Notes under the pieces: model-generated
Told to the model about the DNA's origin: nothing
Databases searched by the model: none
What the model saw: the letters and a program-made list of their open reading frames with translations, nothing else
In this document: positions 223 through 46,344 of the stretch, one piece after another
Layout of the letters: every line of letters begins with the position of its first letter
Position numbering within the stretch: the stretch's first letter is position 1
NCBI GenBank assembly: GCA_009823395.1
Contig: CM020507.1
Span: 5,336,501-5,400,500 of the forward strand
Origin: Thamnaconus septentrionalis
Taxonomy: Eukaryota; Chordata; Actinopteri; Tetraodontiformes; Monacanthidae
Direction: 5' to 3'
DNA length: 64,000 nt
Translations under genes and position numbers: made by a program

Positions 223-3200
223 GTAAGACGCCGTCCACAGGTTCCTCAGGTTCGCTTGAAATTGTGCAAAACTGAAGTTGCATTAAGCGAAAAAGTAATG
301 GCAATGCGTCAATTTCAAAACTCCCTTCGTATTGTGGAGAAGAAAAATGGTTACACTACGTGATATTTTTGCCAGTTTTTAAAAAGCGTATATTTTGCAA
401 AACTGCACAAATTTAAATAGCAAAAAATAAAACTTAAAACAGAAACATGTTGCCACTCAAACTGTTGCAACTGTTGCACACATGTCTCTGTCCAGCCTAG
501 TGGATAGAGGTGCACGTGATTAAAAAAGGCACATTTCACTAAACTGCAATGGAAACACGGCTGCTGGGAGTCTCTCACGCAAGATCACTTTGTTTGTTTA
601 TTTGTGTCCGCGGATTTTTGTGATGACTCTCCTTCGCTGAACTTTAACTACGTGCGCCTTTATTTTTGGAAGATGACACCGAGGCCGAGCTGTATTACTG
701 CTAATCCCACCCGCCGCTTGAACAAATATCCCTGTCACACGGAAATAAATCCGGTGCCGCCGCACGGCACGGCACAGCACAGCTCGGCTCTGCGCCTACC
801 AGGAAAAGAAAAGAAGCAACAGATGCTGCTCCTGTCAAAGCCTGGCACGGAATTAAAAGAGGCGACAGGAAGTCAGGGAAACTTTCTGAGGGATCCATCC
901 TGCACCTGTGGGACGTTTCCCTCTAGGAAGCCCTCTCTCGCATTATCCTGTTTTGTTTGGACAACACAGAGCGAGACACGCAGCAAAGGTGATGAAAACA
1001 AAGTGGGAATAATCGAGATTACAAAAAACAAATCCCCCAAGTGAGGTATAAGCGGCAAAATTTCTAATCTGGTTATCGTCGAGGTTATCGCCACTGTTTG
1101 AAAGATTCGGGGGCAGGGGACGTTTGTTTTGCAGAAGCAGTTAAAAGTCCTTGTCGATCAACTCTATTTTGTGCCTGTTTTTCAGAGAACACTACAGAAC
1201 TCAGGGGCGAGTCAATAGAAAGTGTTTCAGTTTGGTTCTGGAACAACACAGATCTGGTGAGTTTGTACAGTTGTGATATTTCTTTATGTATTTTTCCCTT
1301 GACCCAGGAATTAATTATTTTCATTGATTATTTTCTGATCCTATTAAATGATTTATCTTTTTTTTATTTTTTATTGTGTTTGGCCCATGAGCTCTGCACA
1401 TAAATGCAATACAGATGGTTCCATTCTACTGCTTTATCTCTTTATTGCGGCTAACTGGTGACCGAAAACAAAATAGCCGCAGTGGTCTAAACGAGGAGTA
1501 GATTGTTGACGCGCATGCAAAAATAAATCCAATCTTGCTTCAAGGTTATTTGTATACGCTTTATTCTTAGCACTACAGCTCCAATAAACAATCAAACACA
1601 GGAAACACTAAGTGATCCTAATTCATGCAAAGCGGTCAACAGAAAATGTCGCCTCCGACGCTCACCCCATCAGATCAACACCTTTGAGGCGCACAGGTGA
1701 ATGCCATTAAAAAGAGTCATGGCTACACCCCACAGTGACACAACACACACACGCGCCCTACCCAGGTGTCAAAGAAGTGCGCTCACAAATAAACATTAGG
1801 CACTCACGGCTCCTACACTCTTATATCGATTAGATTTTATTGTTCTATCGAACTTTCCTCTAATAATCATTTCACTGCACTCTTAAATACTGACCATTTG
1901 CCTCCTTTCCCCCCTCTAAGCCTGAAGGACTTTAGTCCAACAATCTTTGAACGATAACAGTCACAGCCACTTGTAGTAAAAGAAGATAAAACCAAAACAC
2001 AGCCGTATCACATTCATGTGTCCGATCTGACTTTAGCTTATCGCAGTGCGCTGAGTTTATCTTCGCCTTAATGCAGGAGAGGGAAAGTCTTCAACTGTTA
2101 TCGGTCACTGCTGATGTGACCGAGCTGTCACAGAGCTTTTATTGAACTTTTCTCTGCAGCCATAGTAACAATAATAAAAACAAAACAAGGCAACATCTCA
2201 GTGATCGTAACAACTTTTTCCGTTTTCCTCCACACAGCCAATGAACGCCACATGGTCGTCGCTAACGAGGACCGAGTGCATCAAGTACAAAGGCGAGCTG
2301 GTGGGGAAGGCCTGCGACTTCGTGCCCGACATCACCCTCATGTCCTTCATCCTGTTCTTCGGCACCTACACCTGCTCCATGGCGCTGAAGAAGTTCAAGA
2401 CCAGCCCCTTCTTCCCCACCACCGTGAGCCGACACTCTCTGAGTCACCAACTCTCTGACTCACCAACTCACTGACTCGCCGATGTGGTTCGAATCAGGTG
2501 CCCGACGACGTTTTCTTGTTCCCTAGGTGAGGAAGCTCATCAGTGACTTTGCCATCATCCTGGCCATCTTCATCTTCTGCGGAGTCGACATGCTCGTGGG
2601 GGTGGACACTCCAAAACTCATTGTGCCAACTGAATTCAAGGTCAGGGCCTTTGATTTTTTTCCATTTTCTTCTTGCTTGTCACATTAACAGCAATAAGAA
2701 AGGACTACAGCTGACGCCGAGCAACATTTGTTCAAGTCACAGTGCAGTCCACTTCCTGCGCCTCTTTTTAAGGCTTCTTCCTCTACGATGACTATAACAG
2801 CGAGTTGAAAAATACACTCTGGGCATCAGGCCATCGTCTTTAGTTTAACAGCGAGATATCTGGACATACATCTCAAATGTTTTACACCGAAATTTCAACA
2901 ATTTAATCACACGTCAAGCAGTCACACAATGCCCTACTCCGGTGTGCACGTTTTCTATGCGACTAGCATGCTGAAGCTTTTTTTGTCTCCCCTCTTTTAC
3001 AGCCAACAAGTCCCCACCGCGGCTGGTTCGTGCCCCCCTTCGGAGGGAACCCCTGGTGGGTTTACCTGGCGTCGGCTCTTCCCGCTCTGCTGGTCACCAT
3101 CCTGATCTTCATGGACCAACAGATCACCGCCGTCATCGTTAACCGGAAGGAGCACAAGCTAAAGGTGAGCTGGACCCGCCCCCAAAGCTCGCCAACCGAC

Positions 3201-6200
3201 AACTGAGCTTCCCCTCTTTTTTGCTCTTGTCCTCGCCAACTGTTACACACCAACAACAAGCCAGCAGCAGTTAGCTGGATCGCTTTGGCAGGATTTGACG
3301 TATTTAGATGATCGAGTTTGCTTCAAAATGAATTCTGTGGCTAATATTGATGGAGCAATATGTGTAAATATAAATATTTCCCCTTAAAATAGTCTGGTTA
3401 GCAGTGAAATTTGAAGTGACAGTGACACGGAGCTGAATATTGCTCAGCAGCACCCAGTCCGTTTTTTTCTCTCGCCGCCTGTCACGCCTGATTTGTGCGA
3501 CGCGAGGGTTTGTTTGCCTTTCCCACAACAAGCCGCAATTTTGCGCAGAGCCCCGCCGCACTGCAGTTGACACGCGGCCGTCATTCTCGCCATGTGGGCG
3601 AGAGATGTTTCATGACTGTGAGTGAACACATGGGTTTCATCTGCACATCCCGTCCTAGAGCCTCTGTGTGTGCGTAAGACTGTCGCTTAAACACGCTCGG
3701 TGGAGGGATATAATATCTCGTCACATGAAACCTTGTGTTTGTCTGTTGTCCAGAAAGGGGCAGGCTACCACCTGGACCTGTTCTGGGTGGCCGTGCTCAT
3801 GGTGATCTGCTCCTTCATGGGCCTGCCGTGGTACGTGGCCGCCACCGTCATTTCCATCGCTCACATCGACAGCCTGAAGATGGAGACGGAGACCTCGGCG
3901 CCCGGAGAGCAGCCAAAGTTCCTGGGTGTGAGGTGAGACCCCTCCCCGCCCCTCCGACACCTCCTGCTAACACCCACCAACACCCACCAACACCCCCAGC
4001 AGAGTCACTATCAGCTGGAACATTAAAAATCCCGTCCGATCATCAGCGAAACCCTAAAAGGGCCCCTCCTTCGAGAAACCCATTCAAAGCTAGATCAAAG
4101 TCAGCCTGGTGTTGCAGCGCCACCTGTCGGTGAGATGTTGGCTGACCACATGTTCCATGTAAAAGCTGCGTTCAGCCAAATTTTTACTTGCAAGTTTAAA
4201 ATGTCTTTTAGTGTTGGTAAAAAATGATGTATGTTTGGATTGCAGTGAAGTAAATTTTTTTTGGAGATTTAGGACGAACTGTAATTACTAGAGAACATTA
4301 TCTGCCTGCCTTAAAGGAATTTTTTTTTGGTTCTCATCTGTTTGGTGATGTCCTACAGAGGAGCTTGATGTTTCAGCTGCAAGCTGAAGTAACAAACTCT
4401 AGTGGCGCAAAACAATAAAACACCTGCAAGGACTAAAAACAGACTTCCCCCGCAACATCCCCTCAACTTGTGTCCAGGCTTTATGTGACTGAATTATTAA
4501 CAAGTGAAGTGCAGTTAAAGGCACTGCATTTCATGAATGTACAACAAATAAACGGTGTGTAATAACTGCTCTTTCCTCTTGTGATTTTCAGAGAGCAGAG
4601 GGTCACTGGTGTGTGTGTGTTCATCCTGACGGGTCTCTCAGTGTTCATGTCTCCTATTCTGAAGGTGATTATCAACAGTGGGCTCTCAAACTCGGTCAAA
4701 TGTTTGTTTTAAGTTTTACCACTTCAGAAATGTGAATTAAAAAAAAACACAAAAGCTGGATTTGCAGTAACACCACAAGCTCAAAACGCAGTGGCGCTGC
4801 TGTCACTCACAAGGAAAACCTGAAACCTTTCTTTACAATACATTGTGGTCAACTGACATGCATGTTATGTATTTTTTATATTATTTATGGTTTCATCCCG
4901 TCTTTTTACACAGTTCATCCCCATGCCTGTGCTGTACGGAGTCTTCCTCTACATGGGAGTCGCCTCCCTCAATGGAGTGCAGGTACATTTTAAAAGTCCC
5001 ATACTGTCGCTAGGTTGAGCTGCGCACAATGTTGAGGATGGAGTTTTTCTTATTGATTGTTGGGATATAGACACATGTTGTCGTTTTTAATTATATAGGA
5101 GCTTTTAAAAATCTCCGTGTGGACGATGCTTTGACAATAACAGACGTTTTTCAATCTTGATGCAGTAGTAAAGTAGTAATAGTAGTAAAGGCAGACACAC
5201 AGTCACCTTCAGACTTTCCCGACAGGAAACAGAACAACAACAACATCCCGGTGTTGTGTGTGTTGTTGTGTTGATGCGCGAGACACACTGACCCCTGTGT
5301 CTCCCGCGCTGCTTCGCTCTCCTGCAGTTCATGGATCGTCTCCAGCTGCTGCTGATGCCGGCCAAGCACCAGCCCGACCTGGTGTACCTGCGGCACGTCC
5401 CCCTCAGGAAGGTCCACCTCTTCACCTTCATCCAGATCCTGTGCCTTGCGCTGCTCTGGATCCTCAAGTCCACCGTGGCGGCCATCATTTTCCCTGTCAT
5501 GGTGAGAGACGAGAGCGCGGCATGACTGCACAAAATCACTTTAAAACACAAACAAGGTGCACAAGTAAAGAGAGATAATTAAATAAAAAATAGGTTTTAC
5601 AGTGGTTCAGCCACAGTCTCTCATAAACCCCATAGTACAGTACAGTAGTATTGATTAAATTTAGTGTGCATATATGACAGAAATTCAGTGTTGCTGGGTA
5701 GAAAATGACAGGAACACGTATAAACAGCACTTAACTATGCCTCTTCAACAATCAGCCAACTAATCAAGTAATCAATAAAAATATTTGATTGATAGGTTGA
5801 TCGATAGATTGATGATTGGTAAAAAAAAGAAAAGAAAAAAAGGGCCAGCTCTGACTGTTCCATCCTTGCGGCTCTCAGATCCTGGCCCTGGTGGCTGTCA
5901 GGAAGGCCATGGACTACATGTTCTCCCAGCATGACCTCAGCTTCCTGGACGACGTCATCCCAGAGAAGGACAAGAAGAAGAAGGAGGACGAGAAGAAGAC
6001 CAAGAAGGAGCGAGGCAGCATGGACAGCGACGCCGAAGACGTAAGAGAGACGCAGCTCGTCGCTCACATTGTGATCGTTACTTCCCTTGGTGTGTTTTCC
6101 TTCCTGCAGCGTGAAGCTTGTGAAGGTTTCATCCACCGGCTAAAACAGTCTCCACCTCCACAGAGTTTTCTTTGTTTGTTTGAGTTTTGTAGTTTGCGAC

Positions 6201-8864
6201 CACCTAAACGTTCTCTAGCTCTCTGGAAATCCGCCCACTTAGCCCTCTGTTTGTCACCAGCAATTGTCGCTGACCTTTGTGACGTCACAAAGAGTAAATT
6301 TTTTTCAAGAGCAAAGCAAGCCAAGTTCTCACATACTGGTGAAGCACCATTTTGTCCAATTTGGGACCTTTGAGATGTGATGGCACCTATTCCTCCCTCG
6401 TCAATTGTCTTTTCAGGCAGCATATTTTTTTTCAAACAAACAAATGAAAAACAAGAAAGCAGTTGGTCCTGTGAACTGAGCTCACAGTGAAGGTCCTTTG
6501 CAGGCCTTTGCAGCCTCCCTCTCTCAGGATGTGCCTCTCCTTTCTCCAACAGTCCGACTATCCTTACAATGAGAATGTTCCCAGCATTAAAATCCCAATG
6601 GACATGATGGAGCAGGAGCCCTTCTTAGGTGATAAGGCCTCTGACAGTGAGTAGACAGCATCGGGAGGAGGAGGAGGAGCAGCACCTCCTTGCGCTCCTG
6701 GTTCTGATTCTGTCCGGTTCTTCCTGCTCTGCTCGTGTCTCTGACGGCTATCATCATTCAGACTGGATTTTCTTCCACCTTTGCTCCCGCCTCTCACTAA
6801 CTGCACCACTTCCTTCTTATTACTTTTACAACCGTAAAAATAAATGCATGTAATTAACTAATATTTCCTTCCTTTCTGGATAAACATTAATGCTGTTTGC
6901 CTTCTGTTCTTTTCTTTCCTGTTTTTCCTTTTTCTCATTTTGCCGTCTTGCAAAACTTGTGTTGAGCTTTATGAAAACTTTCACCATCACTTGCAAGCTT
7001 TGTCAAATTGCCTTTGGTTTCATATATACTGCATGAACAAACCTTGTCAACCAACATGTTTTCCTTGTTCGGCTCTGAGAAACTGCAGCCACAACAGTAT
7101 CCACGCTAATCTCTTTAGCCAGCCATTGTTTACAGCTTCTTCCTGGTCTTGGGATCACGTTTATCGTTATGGGAGTCTGATTGACTAAAATTTATCAGCC
7201 AGATTGCCAAACTCCGCGAGGTTATATGTAAAGCTAGTATTTGTCTATTTTTTTTTTTTTTTAAGTCATGCAGTATCTGATTTACTCTTGATTAAAAGGG
7301 CCATACTGCTGAAAACTAGCTGCTGTTTCAGACATCACACATCATCATATCAGCTCATTAAAACCATGTTCTGGTTTACTTTCCTGCGCAGGAGAGAAGT
7401 CCCCATCATTCCTTGAACGACACACGTCGTGCTGAGCAGCTTCGCTACTACCAGGCCAACTACCTGTCCAGGTGAGCCCACCTTTGTATGCATGTGTGTG
7501 TGGTGAGAGCGAGAGTCCAATAGCTGACAGTCGCAAACACCTGCAAAAAAACTGTAGCTCAACCTTAAAGAGCAAATAAAACGCAACGTGAGTGGCACTG
7601 ACTCTCCCGCCTTGTACTTTAAACAAATTCCTGTCCGAAGCCTCAAAGGTCACAAAAGGTCTGAAAGGAAGCTAACAAGCTAACATATAATCAAGGCTTG
7701 AACTTTAAAGGTCAAATCAGGCTAACTGACTTACACTACAGCTGTGTTTTGGCCAGTGGAACGGACGGGACATATTTCTCCACGCTGTCTGTCCATGTTG
7801 CATGCCTGTGAGTCGACCTTAAAGCTGACCTGCGGTCACACAGCACGTATTTACAGTTATCACATATTCTACCACAATAAAGGTTGAGACAAACTGCCTG
7901 CTTTCTCCAGGCTTTACATCCGAGTTGATGGTCAGTTGTCAAAATTTGGTTTCATCTTGTTTTGGAATTTGAAAATCAGGGTGTGTGGCATGTGGAGACT
8001 GTGAAGATCACACATTCGTGGCACGTGACAGTCCAGCAGCTCACATCTAATCCCATCATGTGTAACAGGGTGAGATGAAGAAGACAATTGTGATATGATT
8101 ATGCGGTAACGATTGGAGGAGGCGGAGCTTAACTTTGGCAGGTGAGGAGTTGTGGCTGAGCTCCAGCGGACTCCAGCTGAGCTCTCTGTAATCCTGATAA
8201 TCTTAGAGACATCAAAACACTTCCAAATCACAGCGTAGTGATTAAAATCTCCCTCCCTAAAATTTAAAAAATAAAAAAATCAGGAGAAGCAGTGACAGAA
8301 TGTGAACATCCAGCATGATTCCAACTTCATAAAATAAAGGATTTATCTACCTGAGATGAAATGAATAACAGTGGCAGCGAGGAAGAGACAGAAAGGAGGC
8401 AGAGCTGAATTCTGGATAGAAGGATGCCAAGGTATTAAGTGGCAGGCAGAAGACCTAGGAAATTTGTGAATGAAGTGACAGACGACAGGAAGTGAGTTGA
8501 TGTGTGAGAGAGAAGAGGATACTGAGACGGAGGCAGATGATTGCCTGATAAGTCAGTGAAGCATTTGAAAAGAAAATGAGGCTTTCAAACGACCAGATTT
8601 CATTAATAAAAACAAATCAGACATGTGGCGCTTGGCTGATGTGAGCATCACACGAGTCAAAACAAAGGATCCACCCCCCCAAGCATGTATTACTGCTGAA
8701 CGTTTTCATCGCCAATGAGGACGCGGATGAGATTAGATCTCATCATCATGCTGTAACATCTCCTAAATGACTGGGATCATTGCTTGACAAATATCACGTG
8801 CCACTCATCCGCTTGGCTGGCAACAAGAGGATTTTCCCTCTGCTGTCGCATAAATTTCGATATC

Positions 8865-8929
<65 letters not shown>

Positions 8930-10175
8930 CACACTTCTCTTCTGCATTCAAGATATTTTTAAGGCAAAAAAGTGAAAAGACATGATGCAGACAGACACGA
9001 TAGAGCATTTGGCCAAAGCATTATCAATACAGGTCGAGGAGGACAAGCTGAAGCAAATTCCTCAATTCTGGTGGTGTATATGTATAACGAGAAAATACCC
9101 CTATAGAACTAAGAAGTAAATTGCTTCAGAAAAATTTACTTTGAACTTGTTAATCTCCACAACCACTGGAAACACTTAATCACCTCAATTAAAGTCCAAC
9201 ATTTTTCCCCGTCAGATTGGGACAACTGACCTGTCAGCTTGTCCCAATCCAGTCCTAGTTTGTCCCAATCTAGTCCTAGCTTGTCCCAATCCAGTCCTAG
9301 CTTGTCCACACCTGTATTTACCTCTGTGAAACAATCACTCCCAGTGGTTGTCCCTGTTATTGACTGCAACATGGCTGCCAGCTCCTCCGTGTTTATCCCA
9401 CGTATCAAGACGAGTAGCTGGGCGGTGTCAGGTCCATTGCAGTAAACGAGTCAAAGTTGGCCGCTCTGTTCTTCGGCTGAAGCTCCCGAGTTTCCAGCGA
9501 TGTGCTCAACTCGCCTCGTTACAGCACGTCGGCAGAGTGGAACGTTCTCGAATGTTCCCTTCTTCTCGAGCCATGTGAGTGCAACAGAGTCCAGTGAGCA
9601 CTCCCCAACTAACTCTCTATCACAAAACGCCTTACTTTCATGGGGTCATTGTGTGAGACATTCCAAAACTTGTTCTGACGGCTGCATCTCAAGGTGTGCC
9701 ACCTTTCGTTAAGTCCGTGATGGGTTTTCAGTTTTGTTAGCGACACATCAGACAGATTTCTGTATTCATTCATCCTCATGGTAGTAGTGACGTTCAAATT
9801 GTAATCTTTTAACACAGCGATCTGTGAATCACAAATTTAGCACACAGCTTCAGTAAAGAAGTTCTTGGCAGCCCATGTCTTGTACAAAACACGGCATTCG
9901 TTATCAACTGTTCTTTTCCTGGCGTGACCTGGAACCGGACTAGCGCCACTTGTTGCTGCTCACCTTCAATCGCGGTGCGCGCCCAATACGGACGTAACGC
10001 TTTTCAAAATAAAAGCAATTTGCCAACGTATTAACCGTCAAACATAAAGGAAACAGGTGTGAGAAAGGCAGTTCATTGCTACTTACTGTCTCCCATTAAC
10101 ATGAATATCTCTTGATTTCCGAATGGTGCTTTGGAATCGAGCATTTGTCCACTAACAGACTTTTTTTTTCTCCTT

Positions 10176-10213
<38 letters not shown>

Positions 10214-10328
10214 TTGCAGCCCTGAGATGAGTCCTCTGAAGTCTGTGCCTCAGATTAGAATAGACATGGACCCGGATGATGATAATTCCTTCTACTGGAA
10301 GAGCAGAGGATCGGAAACATCTCTGTAG
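1..10328 (+). CDS. slc4a4: slc4a4 3' half: electrogenic Na+/HCO3- cotransporter NBCe1 (13 exons, 5' truncated)
   Basis: Plasma-membrane Na+/bicarbonate cotransporter of the SLC4 family (acid-base transport in epithelia, glia and other cells). Exons: 1-222 (partial), 1186-1256, 2238-2423, 2527-2640, 3003-3164, 3754-3932, 4592-4664, 4914-4982, 5328-5501, 5879-6040, 6553-6646, 7392-7471, 10220-10328. All introns are GT-AG and all phases match. The A/B-type reading gives 515 residues ending HTSC at 7433-7435, about half of the roughly 1,035-1,080-residue family length. Recognised NBCe1 stretches include [93 protein letters not shown] and [20 protein letters not shown]. The phenylalanine-rich start and TM-loop wording fit SLC4A4, not SLC4A7/8/10. 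Teleosts often carry a and b copies; which one this is cannot be decided. The promoter and N-terminal half lie left of the window. Confidence 0.97.
1186..1256 (+). CDS. slc4a4: slc4a4 exon, 71 nt: variable extracellular-loop segment with N-glycosylation sites
   Basis: Short exon found from splice signals and phase rather than strong similarity. The acceptor is a pyrimidine-rich stretch ending TTTTTCAG and the donor is CTG|GTGAGT. It takes phase 1 from the preceding exon and leaves phase 0, exactly what the next exon needs. It encodes about 24 residues with sequons NTT and NNT. In human NBCe1 the same position holds a poorly conserved, N-glycosylated part of extracellular loop 3. Confidence 0.88.
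2238..2423 (+). CDS. slc4a4: slc4a4 exon: end of extracellular loop and next TM span
   Basis: Acceptor CACACAG and donor ACC|GTGAGC, phase 0 at both ends, 62 codons. It opens PMNATWSS, a third sequon, and holds two more loop cysteines (TEC and KAC). It continues [18 protein letters not shown] and [13 protein letters not shown], near-identical to human NBCe1. Confidence 0.97.
2527..2640 (+). CDS. slc4a4: slc4a4 exon, 38 codons: TM span with [12 protein letters not shown]
   Basis: Acceptor CCCTAG and donor AAG|GTCAGG, phase 0 at both ends. It encodes [16 protein letters not shown] followed by [13 protein letters not shown], an SLC4 hallmark. The first codon is GTG (Val), where human NBCe1 has alanine. 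Confidence 0.97.
3003..3164 (+). CDS. slc4a4: slc4a4 exon, 54 codons: SLC4 family core with [17 protein letters not shown]
   Basis: Acceptor TTTTACAG and donor AAG|GTGAGC, phase 0 at both ends. It encodes [13 protein letters not shown], then a hydrophobic span, then [19 protein letters not shown], the most conserved SLC4 transporter motif. Confidence 0.98.
3754..3932 (+). CDS. slc4a4: slc4a4 exon, 179 nt: [12 protein letters not shown] ... [11 protein letters not shown]
   Basis: Acceptor TTGTCCAG and donor GAG|GTGAGA, entering in phase 0 and leaving in phase 2. It carries KGAGYHLDL, the [19 protein letters not shown] span and [12 protein letters not shown], all diagnostic for Na+-coupled SLC4 members. 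Confidence 0.98.
4592..4664 (+). CDS. slc4a4: slc4a4 exon, 73 nt: REQRVTG ... SVFMSPILK
   Basis: Acceptor GATTTTCAG and donor AAG|GTGATT. The first base completes the arginine codon of GVREQRVTG. The exon ends in phase 0 and encodes most of one membrane span. Confidence 0.97.
4914..4982 (+). CDS. slc4a4: slc4a4 exon, 23 codons: [16 protein letters not shown]
   Basis: Acceptor TTTTTACACAG and donor CAG|GTACAT, phase 0 at both ends. The conserved SLC4 membrane segment [15 protein letters not shown] continues into ASLNGVQ. Confidence 0.97.
5328..5501 (+). CDS. slc4a4: slc4a4 exon, 58 codons: [18 protein letters not shown] and last TM spans
   Basis: Acceptor CTCCTGCAG and donor ATG|GTGAGA, phase 0 at both ends. 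It holds [38 protein letters not shown] and [11 protein letters not shown], matching the end of the NBCe1 membrane domain. Confidence 0.98.
5879..6040 (+). CDS. slc4a4: slc4a4 exon, 54 codons: end of TM domain and Lys-rich cytosolic tail
   Basis: Acceptor GCTCTCAG and donor GAC|GTAAGA, phase 0 at both ends. It encodes [29 protein letters not shown], then a Lys/Glu-rich stretch and [10 protein letters not shown]. The serine in RGS lines up with the human NBCe1-A Ser982 region, a reported PKA site that alters transport stoichiometry. The acidic cluster resembles but does not equal the human DNDD motif. Confidence 0.97.
6275..6292. promoter_or_regulatory. 18-bp perfect palindrome containing full CRE, intron of slc4a4
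   Basis: CTTTGTGACGTCACAAAG is its own reverse complement and contains TGACGTCA at 6280-6287. A near copy occurs at 50669-50688, with similar flanks (AAATTTT downstream), so it probably belongs to a dispersed repeat. Whether it binds CREB/ATF proteins is unknown. Confidence 0.4.
6553..6646 (+). CDS. slc4a4: slc4a4 cassette exon, 94 nt (frame switch between NBCe1-A/B and NBCe1-C tails)
   Basis: Acceptor CTCCAACAG and donor ACA|GTGAGT. It enters in phase 0 and leaves in phase 1. It encodes [17 protein letters not shown] followed by [14 protein letters not shown], matching the human tail that begins [17 protein letters not shown]. Its length is one codon less than the 97 nt absent from mammalian NBCe1-C mRNA. 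Because 94 is not a multiple of three, skipping changes the frame of the next exon. Confidence 0.93.
7392..7471 (+). CDS. slc4a4: slc4a4 dual-frame exon, 80 nt: HTSC stop in one frame, open ERSPHHSL frame in the other
   Basis: Acceptor CTGCGCAG and donor CAG|GTGAGC. After the 94-nt exon it reads [14 protein letters not shown] and stops at 7433-7435, the classical NBCe1-A/B end. Spliced straight after 6040 it reads [16 protein letters not shown], then [10 protein letters not shown], staying open and leaving two bases that join the next exon as a serine codon. Both frames encode plausible protein; the first matches the human A/B tail almost exactly. Confidence 0.93.
8869..8926. repeat. (GA)n microsatellite
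   Basis: Uninterrupted GA dinucleotides, about 29 units, in the last slc4a4 intron. Confidence 0.97.
9136..9925 (-). pseudogene. Decayed hAT/BED-type transposase related to GTF2IRD2, antisense in slc4a4 intron
   Basis: On the minus strand, pieces in several frames read in order like the transposase-derived GTF2IRD2-like proteins that are abundant in fish: [26 protein letters not shown] with [50 protein letters not shown] with [13 protein letters not shown], and [11 protein letters not shown]. Frames shift repeatedly and stops interrupt, so it is not a functional gene. The family was recognised by eye from the motif order. Orientation is opposite to the host gene. The C-terminal part is missing or unrecognisable beyond 9136. 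Confidence 0.75.
9236..9307. repeat. 21-bp tandem repeat (about 3.4 units) inside the decayed transposase
   Basis: Units 9236-9256, 9257-9277 and 9278-9298 plus a 9-bp partial, with two substitutions in the second unit. The unit length equals seven codons; on the minus strand each unit repeats the peptide LGLDWDK. Confidence 0.92.
10178..10212 (+). repeat. 35-nt T tract forming the polypyrimidine tract of the ETSL exon acceptor
   Basis: Pure T run ending 7 nt before the exon at 10220. A branch-point-like CTAAC lies upstream at 10152-10156. Slippage-prone and unusually long for a polypyrimidine tract. Confidence 0.9.
10220..10328 (+). CDS. slc4a4: slc4a4 last coding exon: NBCe1-C-type tail ending in PDZ ligand ETSL
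   Basis: Acceptor GTTGCAG after a 35-T tract. In the open frame it encodes [17 protein letters not shown], then [17 protein letters not shown] and TAG at 10326-10328. The C-terminal ETSL is a class I PDZ ligand shared by NBCe1-C and other Na+-coupled SLC4 members. The skipped-exon product replaces the last 46 residues with 62, against 46 to 61 in mammals. In transcripts that include the 94-nt exon it would be 3' UTR. Confidence 0.93.
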
Positions 10329-31900: not shown

Positions 31901-34085
31901 CGTGAGTAAAAAGAGCCTTGAACGATCATGAATCGACTTTCAGAGCTTTTTTTAATTCACGAATAGAAGTTCAGAGAAACATCACACAAGTCTTTCCTCC
32001 TCTGGCTCTGGCAGGAGTTTCATATTGTTGGATAAAACAACAAAATGTTGTCTCTCGCTCCAGAGCGAGAGAGCGCCGTCACCAACTGTCTCCACTTGCA
32101 GTGAAAAACCTGATCAGACTGTTGAATAGCCACTCCCCTCCACCACCTCTCCATGAACAGCTATTTACCAGATGGATGTGTGAAACTCAGTGTGCAGCTT
32201 CAGTTTAATCCAGAAGGTCTTTTTTCTCAGCATCTTTAAGAACGTGTTTTCACACCAGTGCTTTGACCTGGGGGTAATGTGTGTGTGTGTGGTGGGGTTT
32301 GGGGGTGGTGGGGTGGGGTGGGGGTTGACTAGCTTGGTTTGAATTCAGCCTTTGAATTCAGCCTTTTCACAGCGTCGCTGTGCCGTCAAACTTCAAACCA
32401 CACGAACGGTTGGGTTGGTTTGTTGTGCTGCAAGTGCAGCAATCAAACTCAGCCTCGGACTGAGACGGTCTCGTTCAAGGTGGAACTTGTTTGTGGCTCG
32501 ACCGCGATCTGCTCTTTGCTGGAGGAGAATCAGCTTCCACAGCCTGAGACAGTGTGAATAACGATCAGTGTTATTGTCACTGCATTGTTGTGATGTGGCT
32601 GCTGTTGTTGTTGTAGGTGCTATATGTGCGCTCTCGCCTCCTTCACAGCCGACGCTTGGTTCGAGGCCAGTGAAGGGGGTGAAACTCTCACCTGGCCTTT
32701 TTTCCCCTCCCCTTTCTCAGTATATATTGCTTGGCTTGACATTTTGCCTGGATGAAAATTAAAACCCAGAGAGGTTGAGACTCATCCTGTCTGCCGCCTC
32801 ATCGACTGCTGCGGGAAAAAAAAACTCTATGTGTGAAAGGTAGAAAAAAAAAGAAACAACCGGAGAAGCGCCGGTGCGAATTCAACATTGCACGTGAACT
32901 CCAGAGCTGTTCGTCACCATCCGCACATTCACGCATCCTTTCCTGCCTTGCCGGCTGGAGGGCAGATCGGCGAGCTGTGCATCGACGTGCGAGCGGCGAC
33001 GCCCACCGACTGCTGATGGCCTCCGAGTGATCCAGTCACTCTGCCGAGAACAGGCGCTCAGCACACCCGCTGGTCCCCCCCCGACCCGAGTTCAGCCTAG
33101 CTTGAAAGCACATGAGGTTTCCAGAGGAGCTGATGGGACGCCCTGCCACTGATTAGAACCCACCCAACCGTCTGACCAACCACAAGACAGCACTTGGTGC
33201 ACATGGCACCGTCGACTACATCTCCCAAAATGCACCAGGTCTCGGTGACCCAAGAAAAGATTCCCAAGTTTTCACATTAACGGTTTACTTCAAAAAGTCC
33301 TGTTTATAAATAATTGATGGGCTTTTGTTATTAGCTTGAAAGTTTGATCTTTTATTGATGGAGTAATGTTGTTATTTTTTTTATTAACCTGACGGCTAAA
33401 GTATAACGTCGACGTGGCCCCTTGCTGAGAATCAACTCCACAGTCCTGGTTTATCACAATGCCGAATGCTGAGCAAACCAAAACACACAACAACGTGGAC
33501 CACTAGGTGTAAAGCAGCCTGGAGCTCTTGCCGTTTCTGCGTATCCAACAATTCTCAAGCGGCGTTTCAGAATCCCAGCAGTCAAACTAATTTTCTCTGG
33601 TAAAGCCTGAGTAAGATGGCCATTATCCCACAGTACAAACACACCTGCGCTATGTAGAGGCGGACAAAGGCTGCCCGAGGCAAACCCTGTCAGTGAAATG
33701 GAACACCACCAATAAACAGCCTGCAAAGTTCACTTTTTAGAAAAATGACTTTGTTCAGACATATGATTAAATAGTTCTTACTTCCCAGACAATTCTCGGC
33801 GAGCAGGTCTTGGCTTTGTCAGAGACGCCTGTGACGTGTCAGCCGGCAGGTTTTGACAGCTGGTGTTTTGGTTTTCCAGATACAACCACGTCTCACTTGC
33901 AGTTGCTTGCTGAAAAAAAGAATCATTTTCAGAAGATGTGATGGTAGCCTGAGAGGATTTAACATAGAAAAAGTGAGATTTCTTTCTTTAAAATCTCCTT
34001 GACAAGCCTTCAGCTTTCTAAAACCAATGAAAGCAGATCCAATCCTTGCATCTCTTTCTTTTTCTTCCTTTTTTTTCCTTCTCAG
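28781..34085 (+). other. Probable first intron of npffr2, no other gene seen
   Basis: Contains (AAT)n at 28881-28957, a C17-type tract near 30228-30245 and a tandem copy of GAAGGAAGTTTCAC near 30663-30693. The longest open frame (31327-31806, 159 codons) has no recognisable domain. CG-richer sequence at 32880-33070 with CACGTGAA could be an alternative upstream exon or promoter, unproven. Confidence 0.45.
28881..28957. repeat. (AAT)n trinucleotide repeat
   Basis: About 25 AAT triplets just inside the probable first intron of npffr2. Confidence 0.96.
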
Positions 34086-34092
34086 GTTCAAA

Positions 34093-34438
34093 ATGAATGA
34101 AGCACTCAAGAGCAACTTCACTCCACCGAGTGACAACTGGACGTTTTATAACTCCTCCCCCAGCTCGTTGGAGGAGGGGGAGGGGTCGGCCCTGGCCCGG
34201 AACATCACCTACGTGGGATTCTACCTGCACCAGCCGTCCACGGCGGCCATCTTCATCGCGTCCTACCTGCTCATCTTCCTGGTGTGCATGGTGGGCAACG
34301 GCGTGGTGTGCTTCATCGTGCTGCGGAGCAAGAACATGCGCACCGTCACCAACCTCTTCATCCTCAACCTGGCGGTGAGCGACCTGCTGGTGGGCATCTT
34401 CTGCATGCCCACCACGCTCCTGGACAACATCATAACAG
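34093..34438 (+). CDS. npffr2: npffr2 coding exon 1: N-terminus, TM1, TM2
   Basis: The exon itself starts at 34086 after CCTTCTCAG, seven bases before the ATG at 34093. The donor is CAG|GTGAGT. It ends in phase 1 within LLDNIITG. It encodes the glycosylated N-terminus and TM1-TM2. An ATG at 34097 opens another frame without family similarity and was not used. Confidence 0.97.
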
Positions 34439-35012
34439 GTGAGTCACTTTCTTTTTCTTCCTTTTCTTTTCCTAAAAAACTACCCGGACTGGTCGATCGT
34501 TTCTCCTCGAGCTCTGAGACGTTGGCAGGGCAATTTTCCCCATGAGCAGAGATTCACATGCACGCGCGAGTAAAATATAGATTAGAATTAAGACAAAAAT
34601 ATATAAAAATACTACTACTTCTTTGTACGGCTTTCAACATTTTACTTTATGCCAACACCACCTCCAGCCGTCAGAAGGCATTGCAAGCTTTTGGGAAAAT
34701 ATGCAAAATTAATGATCATTTTAACTTCAAATATTAAAAAAAAGAACAAAAAAAAAAAGAGAAGTCGATGCAGAAGCGGGGCGGAATCTCAGAGCATTAA
34801 TTCAGACCTGGAGCCGTAAAAACCAGACAAGAAAGGAGTCTCTGTGTGAAGCCTTCCATTTTTCATTTTTCCAATACTACATTGTTCTGATGTTGGTGCT
34901 CGTGTGGCTGGACTGAAACGAGCCACATTTCAATCACCTGCTGGGGGACATCTAACAGGAAATTGATTCCAGCATTGCTGTGAACCTTTTATGGGGTGTG
35001 TGTTTGTTTGTT

Positions 35013-45221: not shown

Positions 45222-46344
45222 AGTCTTTCAGTAGCAGCAGCAGCAGCACAGCTGAACAAACGATTTCTTTTTGCTCATTTGCTTCAGCTCACCATATCCC
45301 ACAGACGCTGACATGCAAATCCGATGACATTTTTTGTCCTCTTGGAAATTTGACAACTTTTGTTACCACAAAGATAAGAGCTTTTACAGTCTGTCAGTCG
45401 AAGGTTTTAACTCAAACTTGTCACCAGTTCCCCTGAACAAGTCTTTTTCTCTCTCCCCTAAATCAAAAACCTCTTGCAGATTCAGGTGCATCGTCTACCC
45501 CTTCAAGCAGAAGCTGACCATCTCCACGGCCACCTTGATCATCGTCATCATCTGGGTGCTGGCCGTGTCCATCATGTGTCCCTCGGGGGTGATGCTGCAG
45601 GTGACCGAGGAGCAAAGCATCCGGGTGCTGCTGGGCTACGACAACAAGACCAGCCCCTTCTACTGGTGCCGTGAGAACTGGCCCAACCAGGACATGAGGA
45701 AGATCTACACCACAGTGCTGTTCGCCAACATCTACCTGGCGCCGCTCTCCCTCATCGTCATCATGTACGCCCGGATCGGCATCACACTCTTCAAGACGGC
45801 GGTGCCGGTGGAGGGCAAGCCGGGCCAAGACAGCCGCCACACCGTCTCCAAGAAGAAGCAGCGGGTCATCAAAATGCTCCTCATCGTGGCGCTGCTCTTC
45901 ATCCTCTCCTGGCTGCCCCTGTGGACGCTCATGATGCTGAGCGACTACGCCAGCCTGAGCGAGCAGCAGTACCGCATCATCAACATCTACATCTACCCCT
46001 TCGCCCACTGGCTGGCCTTCTTCAACAGCAGCGTCAACCCCATCATCTACGGCTTCTTCAACGAGAACTTCCGCCGGGGCTTCCAGGCCGTCTTCAAGCT
46101 GGGCCTGTGCACGGCCGACGGCCAGCGGCGCCGGACCTACTCGCACCGGCTGCAGGGCAACTCGGTGCTGCCGGCCAACAACAACAACGCGCAGACGTCG
46201 CTGGAGCCCATCTCCCTCAACAGCCTGGACAGGAAGTCCACCACCTCCAGGAGGGTCAACCACCTGACCGAGCAGGACCTGATCATGGAGGACCTGGAGA
46301 AGGGCTCCGGCAGCAGCGGGGGCGTGACAGCCGTGTCCATCTGA
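34093..46344 (+). CDS. npffr2: npffr2: neuropeptide FF receptor 2, class A GPCR (3 coding exons, 436 aa)
   Basis: Seven-transmembrane receptor for RFamide peptides (NPFF/NPAF type) at the plasma membrane. Coding exons 34093-34438, 41515-41614 and 45480-46344 join with matching phases. The start [10 protein letters not shown] lines up with the human MNE start. N-terminal sequons lie at residues 8, 15, 20 and 37, with another at 204 in extracellular loop 2. Conserved GPCR points: GNGVV in TM1, [11 protein letters not shown] in TM2, Cys124-Cys212 disulfide pair, DRF (148-150, the DRY variant of this family), SWLP in TM6, NPIIY (335-339) in TM7 and tail Cys359. Stretches such as [31 protein letters not shown] and [18 protein letters not shown] are diagnostic for NPFFR2 over NPFFR1. 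Lying downstream of slc4a4 also fits NPFFR2. Mammalian length is similar. Confidence 0.97.
34996..35085. repeat. (TG)n microsatellite with TTTG start
   Basis: About 90 bp, opening with TGTTTG units and then pure TG. Confidence 0.96.
38808..38870 (-). repeat. tRNA-derived sequence (box A and box B)
   Basis: On the minus strand TGGCTGAGGCTGG resembles box A and GGTTCAAATCC resembles box B, about 40 bp apart. No acceptor stem, so it is a SINE-like or pseudo-tRNA fragment. Confidence 0.45.
38948..39016 (-). repeat. tRNA-derived sequence (strong box A and box B)
   Basis: Minus strand reads TTAGCTCAGTGGGTTAGG (D-arm/box A), CACCTGACTCTGGTG (anticodon-like arm) and GGTTCGAATCC (perfect box B). The T-arm nearly pairs but the acceptor stem does not, so a functional tRNA is unlikely. 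Confidence 0.6.
39772..39855. repeat. (AT)n microsatellite
   Basis: About 80 bp of AT dinucleotides. Confidence 0.95.
39979..40050 (+). repeat. tRNA-derived sequence, related to the 38.95-kb copy
   Basis: Plus strand reads TTTAGCTCACTAGGTTAAAC, CTCTGACTGTGGTGTAGG and GGGTTCAAATCCCAG. The order and spacing match the minus-strand copy at 38948-39016, showing a repeated family rather than a single tRNA. Confidence 0.6.
40910..40970 (-). mobile_element. SINE-like tRNA head fragment
   Basis: Minus strand reads GTTAGCACTGTCATCTCACA, then AGAAGGTTGCAAGTTCAATT and CCC. This is the tRNA-like head of a very common fish repeat whose body appears at 59381-59688 and 43269-43352. Confidence 0.6.
41515..41614 (+). 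CDS. npffr2: npffr2 coding exon 2: TM3 with [21 protein letters not shown]
   Basis: 100-nt exon. Acceptor TCTGTCACCAG, donor CAG|GTACGA. Two leading bases complete the glycine codon before [12 protein letters not shown]; the last two are the start of the arginine in DRF. It holds the TM3 cysteine of the conserved disulfide. Confidence 0.97.
42043..42560 (+). mobile_element. Harbinger-type element, 518 bp, perfect 15-bp terminal inverted repeats and Myb/SANT-like ORF
   Basis: Ends are CTGCGTTTCCATGAC (42043-42057) and its exact reverse complement (42546-42560). The words ATGGAAAC and CGCAAT recur inside. An open frame from ATG at 42273 to 42539 starts [16 protein letters not shown] and continues [10 protein letters not shown], which resembles the Myb/SANT-like DNA-binding protein of PIF/Harbinger transposons. 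No DDE transposase is present, so it is non-autonomous. A clear target duplication was not seen. Confidence 0.7.
43269..43352 (+). mobile_element. SINE-like body fragment, diverged
   Basis: Shares CACATGCATGT, GAGAACCCAC, CAGACA and AGAACATGCAAAC, in order, with the better copy at 59381-59688, with an internal deletion of about 20 bp. Confidence 0.55.
44544..44597. repeat. (TG)n microsatellite
   Basis: 27 TG units in the second npffr2 intron. Confidence 0.97.
45164..45220. repeat. (GA)n microsatellite 260 bp before the last npffr2 exon
   Basis: About 28 GA units, immediately preceded by a TG/CG tract. Confidence 0.97.
45480..46344 (+). CDS. npffr2: npffr2 last coding exon: TM4-TM7 and C-terminal tail
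   Basis: Acceptor CTCTTGCAG at 45471-45479; first base completes Arg of DRF. It runs to TGA at 46342-46344. It contains [79 protein letters not shown] and a Ser/Thr-rich tail with [10 protein letters not shown]. Third positions are strongly GC-biased compared with the flanks, which also explains a 318-codon antisense open frame over this exon. Confidence 0.98.

Follow-up and report, generated by a model that had tools for sequence, protein, structure and literature searches.

The slc4a4a locus

The window, i.e. the whole 64,000-nt stretch of Thamnaconus septentrionalis DNA that was analysed, begins inside slc4a4a, the gene encoding the bicarbonate transporter NBCe1, and contains its 3' part. 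Ten coding exons preceding a cassette exon, namely nine upstream exons and a last constitutive one, could be placed with consistent phases (Table 1). The 515 residues compared align end to end with human NBCe1 (PDB 6caa; E 2e-278), the match covering the transmembrane and C-terminal part, and the next relatives in the same comparison are NDCBE and NBCn1, at about 1e-178. The closest named record among the matches listed is P0051 from Nelusetta ayraudi, described as 'member 4a', with 98% identity across 89% of the residues searched; its C-terminal 72 residues agree fully with the predicted cassette-included form of the window, and it ranks lower by score because it carries this other tail. For the cassette-skipped form of the window, the matching fish proteins bear the name solute carrier family 4 member 4a, and the name '4b' is absent from the names shown for the best 120 of 7996 scored records. 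The teleost copy was assigned to slc4a4a rather than slc4a4b by the names of the matches. Downstream, and on the same strand, positions 45328-46344 contain one exon of the gene for neuropeptide FF receptor 2 (E 2e-94 to NPFFR2 in PDB), and a second NPFFR2 piece was recognised by eye at about 34003-34545. The order slc4a4a then NPFFR2 corresponds to the human SLC4A4-NPFFR2 neighbourhood.

Table 1. Features of slc4a4a in the window (positions of the window)
Feature	Position	Strand	Remarks
Upstream coding exons (nine), part 1	3-222, 1186-1256, 2238-2423, 2527-2640, 3003-3164	+	
Upstream coding exons (nine), part 2	3754-3932, 4592-4664, 4914-4982, 5328-5501	+	
Last constitutive exon before the switch	5879-6040	+	ends ...GSMDSDAED, phase 0
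Cassette exon, 94 nt	6553-6646	+	acceptor CTCCAACAG, donor ACA|GTGAGT; ends in phase 1
Two-frame exon, 80 nt	7392-7471	+	acceptor CTGCGCAG, donor CAG|GTGAGC
TGA stop of the NBCe1-A/B type tail	7433-7435	+	36 nt upstream of the end of the 80-nt exon
Final coding exon, used by the skipped form alone	10220-10328	+	acceptor TTGTTGCAG, TAG stop at 10326-10328

A C-terminal splice switch

These exons very probably represent the 3' end of slc4a4a in a teleost and carry the C-terminal splice switch that is conserved in NBCe1. The cassette has a length of 3n+1 and follows a phase-0 exon, which brings the phase from 0 to 1; since 94 = 31 x 3 + 1, its inclusion adds 31 codons and one nucleotide and shifts the downstream frame by one base, the cassette's own frame being devoid of stop codons. 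With the cassette included, the 80-nt exon would be read to its TGA, giving a protein that ends in HTSC, as in the NBCe1-A/B type; with the cassette skipped, the upstream frame would be kept, the same 80 nt would be read differently and translation would proceed into the last exon, giving an ETSL end of the NBCe1-C type. Both of these frames are open as required, the HTSC tail terminating inside the exon that follows the cassette and the skipped form joining in phase to the PDZ-type tail, and the third frame of the 80-nt exon contains a stop. The earlier note had described this arrangement from the sequence, including the identity of the gene and the preservation of an NBCe1-C type switch in a fish, and the coordinates, phases, frames, matches to human NBCe1 and both tails bear it out. 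It had also counted 62 residues for the skipped form, which is correct (62 new residues, ending in SETSL and the stop), and 46 for the included form, which is the human number, the tail in the window having 45.

The HTSC tail of the window aligns end to end with human NBCe1-A (PDB 6caa residues 985-1035, E 6e-19), the same residues with which the cassette was aligned, and the ETSL tail has matching annotated tails in species as distant as sharks; this homology excludes a chance origin of both tails. A C-terminal ETSL fits a class I PDZ ligand, and in this fish it may recruit PDZ scaffolds. Stop codons that lie within a short distance of the last exon junction usually escape nonsense-mediated decay. 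Given that the HTSC stop precedes the last junction by 36 nt, both mRNAs should be stable, and this fish probably makes the two of them. By eye, the splice sites of the switch are near consensus, which would mean that skipping of the cassette is probably imposed by regulation. In the intron downstream of the cassette there are two TGCATG (RBFOX-like) motifs, at 6845 and 7030, and two ACTAAY (QKI-like) motifs, at 6796 and 6857; regulator motifs beside the cassette are not claimed, each having P 0.04 by shuffling among 18 tests. A run of 35 T is present at 10178-10212, just ahead of the ETSL exon's acceptor; individuals may differ in the length of this run, which could influence how the last exon is used.

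Relation to known systems

The closest known system is the mammalian SLC4A4 exon-24 switch (NBCe1-A/B/D/E versus NBCe1-C), which shares the gene, the cassette position, the frame logic and the two tails. The mammalian tails have been described as the last 46 versus 61 residues in a 2015 review (PMC4664831) and end the long form in ETTL, in contrast to the 45 and 62 residues and the ETSL end in the window. The fish cassette has 94 nt versus the 97 nt given for mammals in the earlier note, a figure that fits the 32 codons and one nucleotide of the human tail; the human cassette is one codon longer. The teleost sequence also differs in the stretch after the HTSC stop, as seen when the window is compared with macaque (ADKIPFLQSLGMPSPPRTPVK). 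The same review states that mammalian exon 24 contains the short-tail stop (PMC4664831); the macaque two-frame result described below places it instead in the shared exon that follows the cassette.

Cassette splicing near the 3' end has likewise been reported, in that review, to alter the C-terminus of SLC4A10 (NBCn2) and SLC4A8 (NDCBE), and the NBCn2 C-terminus may be made with or without a PDZ-type ending by splicing (PMC4664831); these are different genes with different tails. With regard to function, no significant transport difference between the NBCe1 tails was found in oocytes and the long tail has a PDZ-binding motif, according to the review (PMC4664831), and another paper proposes that the NBCe1-C end may add to autoinhibition (PMC4464172). 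The fish ETSL tail fits the same PDZ-binding role as the mammalian long tail. As a general class, dual-coding regions that result from frame-shifting alternative splicing likewise use one exon stretch in two frames; SLC4A4 is not named in any of the 8 dual-coding papers among the matches listed by a literature search.

Occurrence of the two tails

The switch itself is not new, because skipped-form tails are already annotated in many fish: the alternation of NBCe1-A/B and NBCe1-C ends is known in mammals and is present in public fish annotation. A description of the tail switch in fish was not found among the matches listed in our literature search; the papers on the cloning of zebrafish, pufferfish and toadfish NBCe1 may mention it. 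Dozens of teleosts have the skipped-form tail in their annotation, as do gar, sturgeon, sharks, rays, chimaera and tetrapods. Among the best 120 of 7996 scored records, 109 end in ETSL, ETTL or ETSI and 10 in HTSC or HTLC, the remaining one (P0023) not being slc4a4; the query behind these counts carried the skipped-form tail and favoured such records, hence the proportion says nothing on expression. A human-based query with the skipped-form tail gave, among the matches listed, 104 further records, two of which name no organism, the others coming from mammals, birds, turtles, lizards, a snake, amphibians, gar, sturgeon, sharks, rays and chimaera, with an ETTL, ETSL or ETAL ending in 103 of them, the snake record being the exception. 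As sharks, rays and chimaera carry it, the skipped-form tail is at least as old as the jawed vertebrates. A query with the HTSC tail returned an HTSC ending in all of the best 120 of 2053 records, those with a named organism being amniotes, so that this tail was seen directly in amniotes and teleosts only.

Many of the fish protein records are automatic gene models, and in nine of them the 80-nt exon is doubtful (P0019, P0024, P0089, P0097, P0105, P0093, P0110, P0117 and P0118). In the fish records P0093, P0110, P0117 and P0118, unrelated residues replace the 80-nt exon ahead of the ETSL tail, perhaps intron sequence that was called as exon. Other models (P0019, P0024, P0089, P0105, P0171 and P0212) retain a portion of the cassette and nonetheless run on into the ETSL/ETTL tail. 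A third tail through a 52-nt intron inside the cassette (6577-6628), which a few automatic models suggest, was rejected because this intron would be very short and has the donor GTTCCC; the part-cassette models look like forced predictions and not like a third isoform. In a group of frog records of the skipped form (P0186, P0188, P0195, P0196, P0198 and P0200-P0205) one extra residue opens the 80-nt exon; an extra Gln fits a tandem acceptor (NAGNAG), and the Leu seen in P0186 and P0188 does not simply fit it.

One DNA stretch encoding both tails

For 12 hand-picked species with both tails in the records (the window itself, macaque assembled from two congeners, and ten others), a search was made for DNA that encodes both tails in the required register. 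Such a two-frame solution exists in 12/12 species and is unique in 11/12, and for the window it is the true sequence. No solution was obtained with shuffled second-frame tails (0/300), and tails combined from different species gave one in 50/126 cases. Two changes are conspicuous in being paired across the frames. In Amphiprion the HTSC ending is replaced by HTLC, and the second frame shows Cys at a position that is Arg in most fish, consistent with a single C-to-T change. In Callithrix, relative to macaque, a Pro-to-Ala replacement in one frame accompanies His-to-Gln in the other, consistent with a single C-to-G change.

In this register the third positions of HTSC-frame codons all coincide with middle positions of second-frame codons. 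The open state of the second frame is by itself cheap, since, given the HTSC peptide and the genetic code, only the Leu-Glu codon pair can create a stop, and this needs the Leu codon CTA or TTA before Glu. The earlier note had concluded, from the arithmetic of the switch, that both frames are under coding constraint across vertebrates; the arithmetic does not carry that far, and upon testing a constraint on the second frame appears likely but unequal between the frames. The HTSC frame is clearly the stricter of the two: its peptide hardly varies in the tails seen, whereas the second frame does drift, though within bounds. Judged by eye, spiny-rayed fish resemble one another in the sequence that follows the HTSC stop and differ there from sharks and tetrapods.

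Probable constraint on the second frame

The second-frame residues were compared across 66 lineages, out of 67 chosen as representatives; Osmerus (P0042), with an overlap shorter by one codon, was excluded. For the snake (P0172), codons 1-5 are displaced by one position, and a single row was omitted at codon 8 (Phe) and another at codon 13 (Cys). Protein records were used for the species other than the window, and a broken second frame would not show in such records. His 6 is kept in 52/66 lineages, Ser 7 in 61/66, Leu 8 in 57/66 and Ala 14 in 62/66; codons 12 and 13 encode His or Arg in 59/66 and 62/65 lineages, with about 15 His-Arg swaps at each by parsimony. Neutral expectations were obtained by simulation on a tree of the protein bodies, in which only HTSC-silent changes were allowed and second-frame stops were forbidden, the rate being calibrated to reproduce approximately the observed number of changes at codons 12 and 13, and 500 runs were made under each of six settings for base composition and transition bias; the simulation assumes a fixed HTSC peptide, which has not been seen in sharks and many fish, and its starting sequence is a composite. 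Under this calibration Leu at codon 8 has a neutral mean of 17-31 of 66 lineages versus the 57 observed, and His at codon 6 of 15-26 versus 52, with P <=0.002 for both in all six settings. For Ser 7 and Ala 14 the values are P <=0.062 over the six settings, and codons 12 and 13 are mixed, the observed count being reached in 0 to 43% of runs (P up to 0.43 and 0.19, respectively).

These results depend on the calibration. When slower neutral rates are assumed in fixed-rate simulations (8 to 15 changes per site over the tree, 100 runs each), most of the conservation in the second frame is no longer exceptional. With equal base frequencies the Leu 8 count has P 0.30 and 0.05 at the slower rates, the former value at the slowest one, where GC-rich base frequencies give 0.08; at the two faster fixed rates the Leu 8 and His 6 counts are unusual. 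The slow rates predict 7-13 changes at codons 12 and 13 versus the 19-20 counted. Binomial tests against codon usage gave tiny P values for codons 8, 12 and 13 and, with this gene's own codon usage, P 0.27 for codon 14, which is not unusual; these tests count related lineages as independent, for which reason the tree-based simulation is preferred. Conservation in excess of the first frame's demands is thus found at codons 6 and 8, in the calibrated runs, and from this excess the HTSC-silent positions appear to be held where the second frame depends on them.

It is conceivable that the overlap is conserved for the HTSC frame only, with the second frame open by luck, unselected within the shared 42 nt and of consequence only in the last exon. 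The ease with which the second frame stays open speaks for this, as do the near invariance of the HTSC peptide beside a second frame that changes at most positions and the comparison of the macaque DNA, inferred from its two-frame solution, with the window, in which 8/44 overlap bases differ, 5 of these 8 being silent in the HTSC frame and all 7/7 second-frame codons touched changing their residue. Nor does the downward trend of change counts with Grantham distance reach significance (rho -0.45, p 0.23), and with slow neutral rates there is little excess to be explained. On the other side stand the calibrated excess at Leu 8 and His 6 and the rarity in this gene of the implied Leu codon, CTT being used for 2/53 Leu codons in its exons; on balance we consider an unselected second frame unlikely. 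Slightly less unlikely is that the held third positions serve DNA or RNA, as an exonic splicing enhancer or similar, and not the second-frame protein. Exons of splice switches often show constrained silent sites, the 80-nt exon belongs to such a switch, and codons 7, 8 and 14 each have one base almost fixed, as a binding site would also produce; codons 12 and 13, however, swap repeatedly between His and Arg and yet stay within these two residues, as limits at the protein level would give, although this restriction does not reach significance in every setting.

It might further be argued that this fish does not make the skipped form, which would then be no more than annotation transferred by homology, given that several automatic gene models at the slc4a4a locus look forced. 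We regard this as very improbable, as an intact second frame, an in-phase join to a conserved last coding exon and an ending conserved from sharks to mammals would be hard to keep without expression. Taken together, the data moderately support a second-frame constraint that is likely kept across jawed vertebrates, the second frame being itself a possible target of protein selection. On the fuller reading, protein selection would have acted on both frames of a 42-nt stretch of slc4a4 at once ever since the jawed-vertebrate ancestor, in the hardest register, and teleosts would have kept the shared part and rewritten the adjacent single-frame part; to this reading we give only slightly better than even credence.

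Significance

Whether the transporter carries a PDZ-type anchor at its end depends on the switch. In the rat brain, NBCe1-C is found mainly in glia and NBCe1-B in neurons (PMC8534249); since the PDZ-type ending thus goes with glial and not with neuronal expression, the fish version offers a testable model, in which the choice of exon may be under tissue control as it is in mammals. The analysis also touches a detail of the 2015 review, as the short-tail stop sits in the shared exon and not in the cassette. Beyond the known switch, what is added is moderate evidence for two-frame selection in a short exon over a very long time. The overlap represents a compact natural case for gauging how much selection a second reading frame can carry and, if the two-frame reading is true, the 42-nt stretch would be a very old and strongly conflicted dual-coding segment made by splicing.
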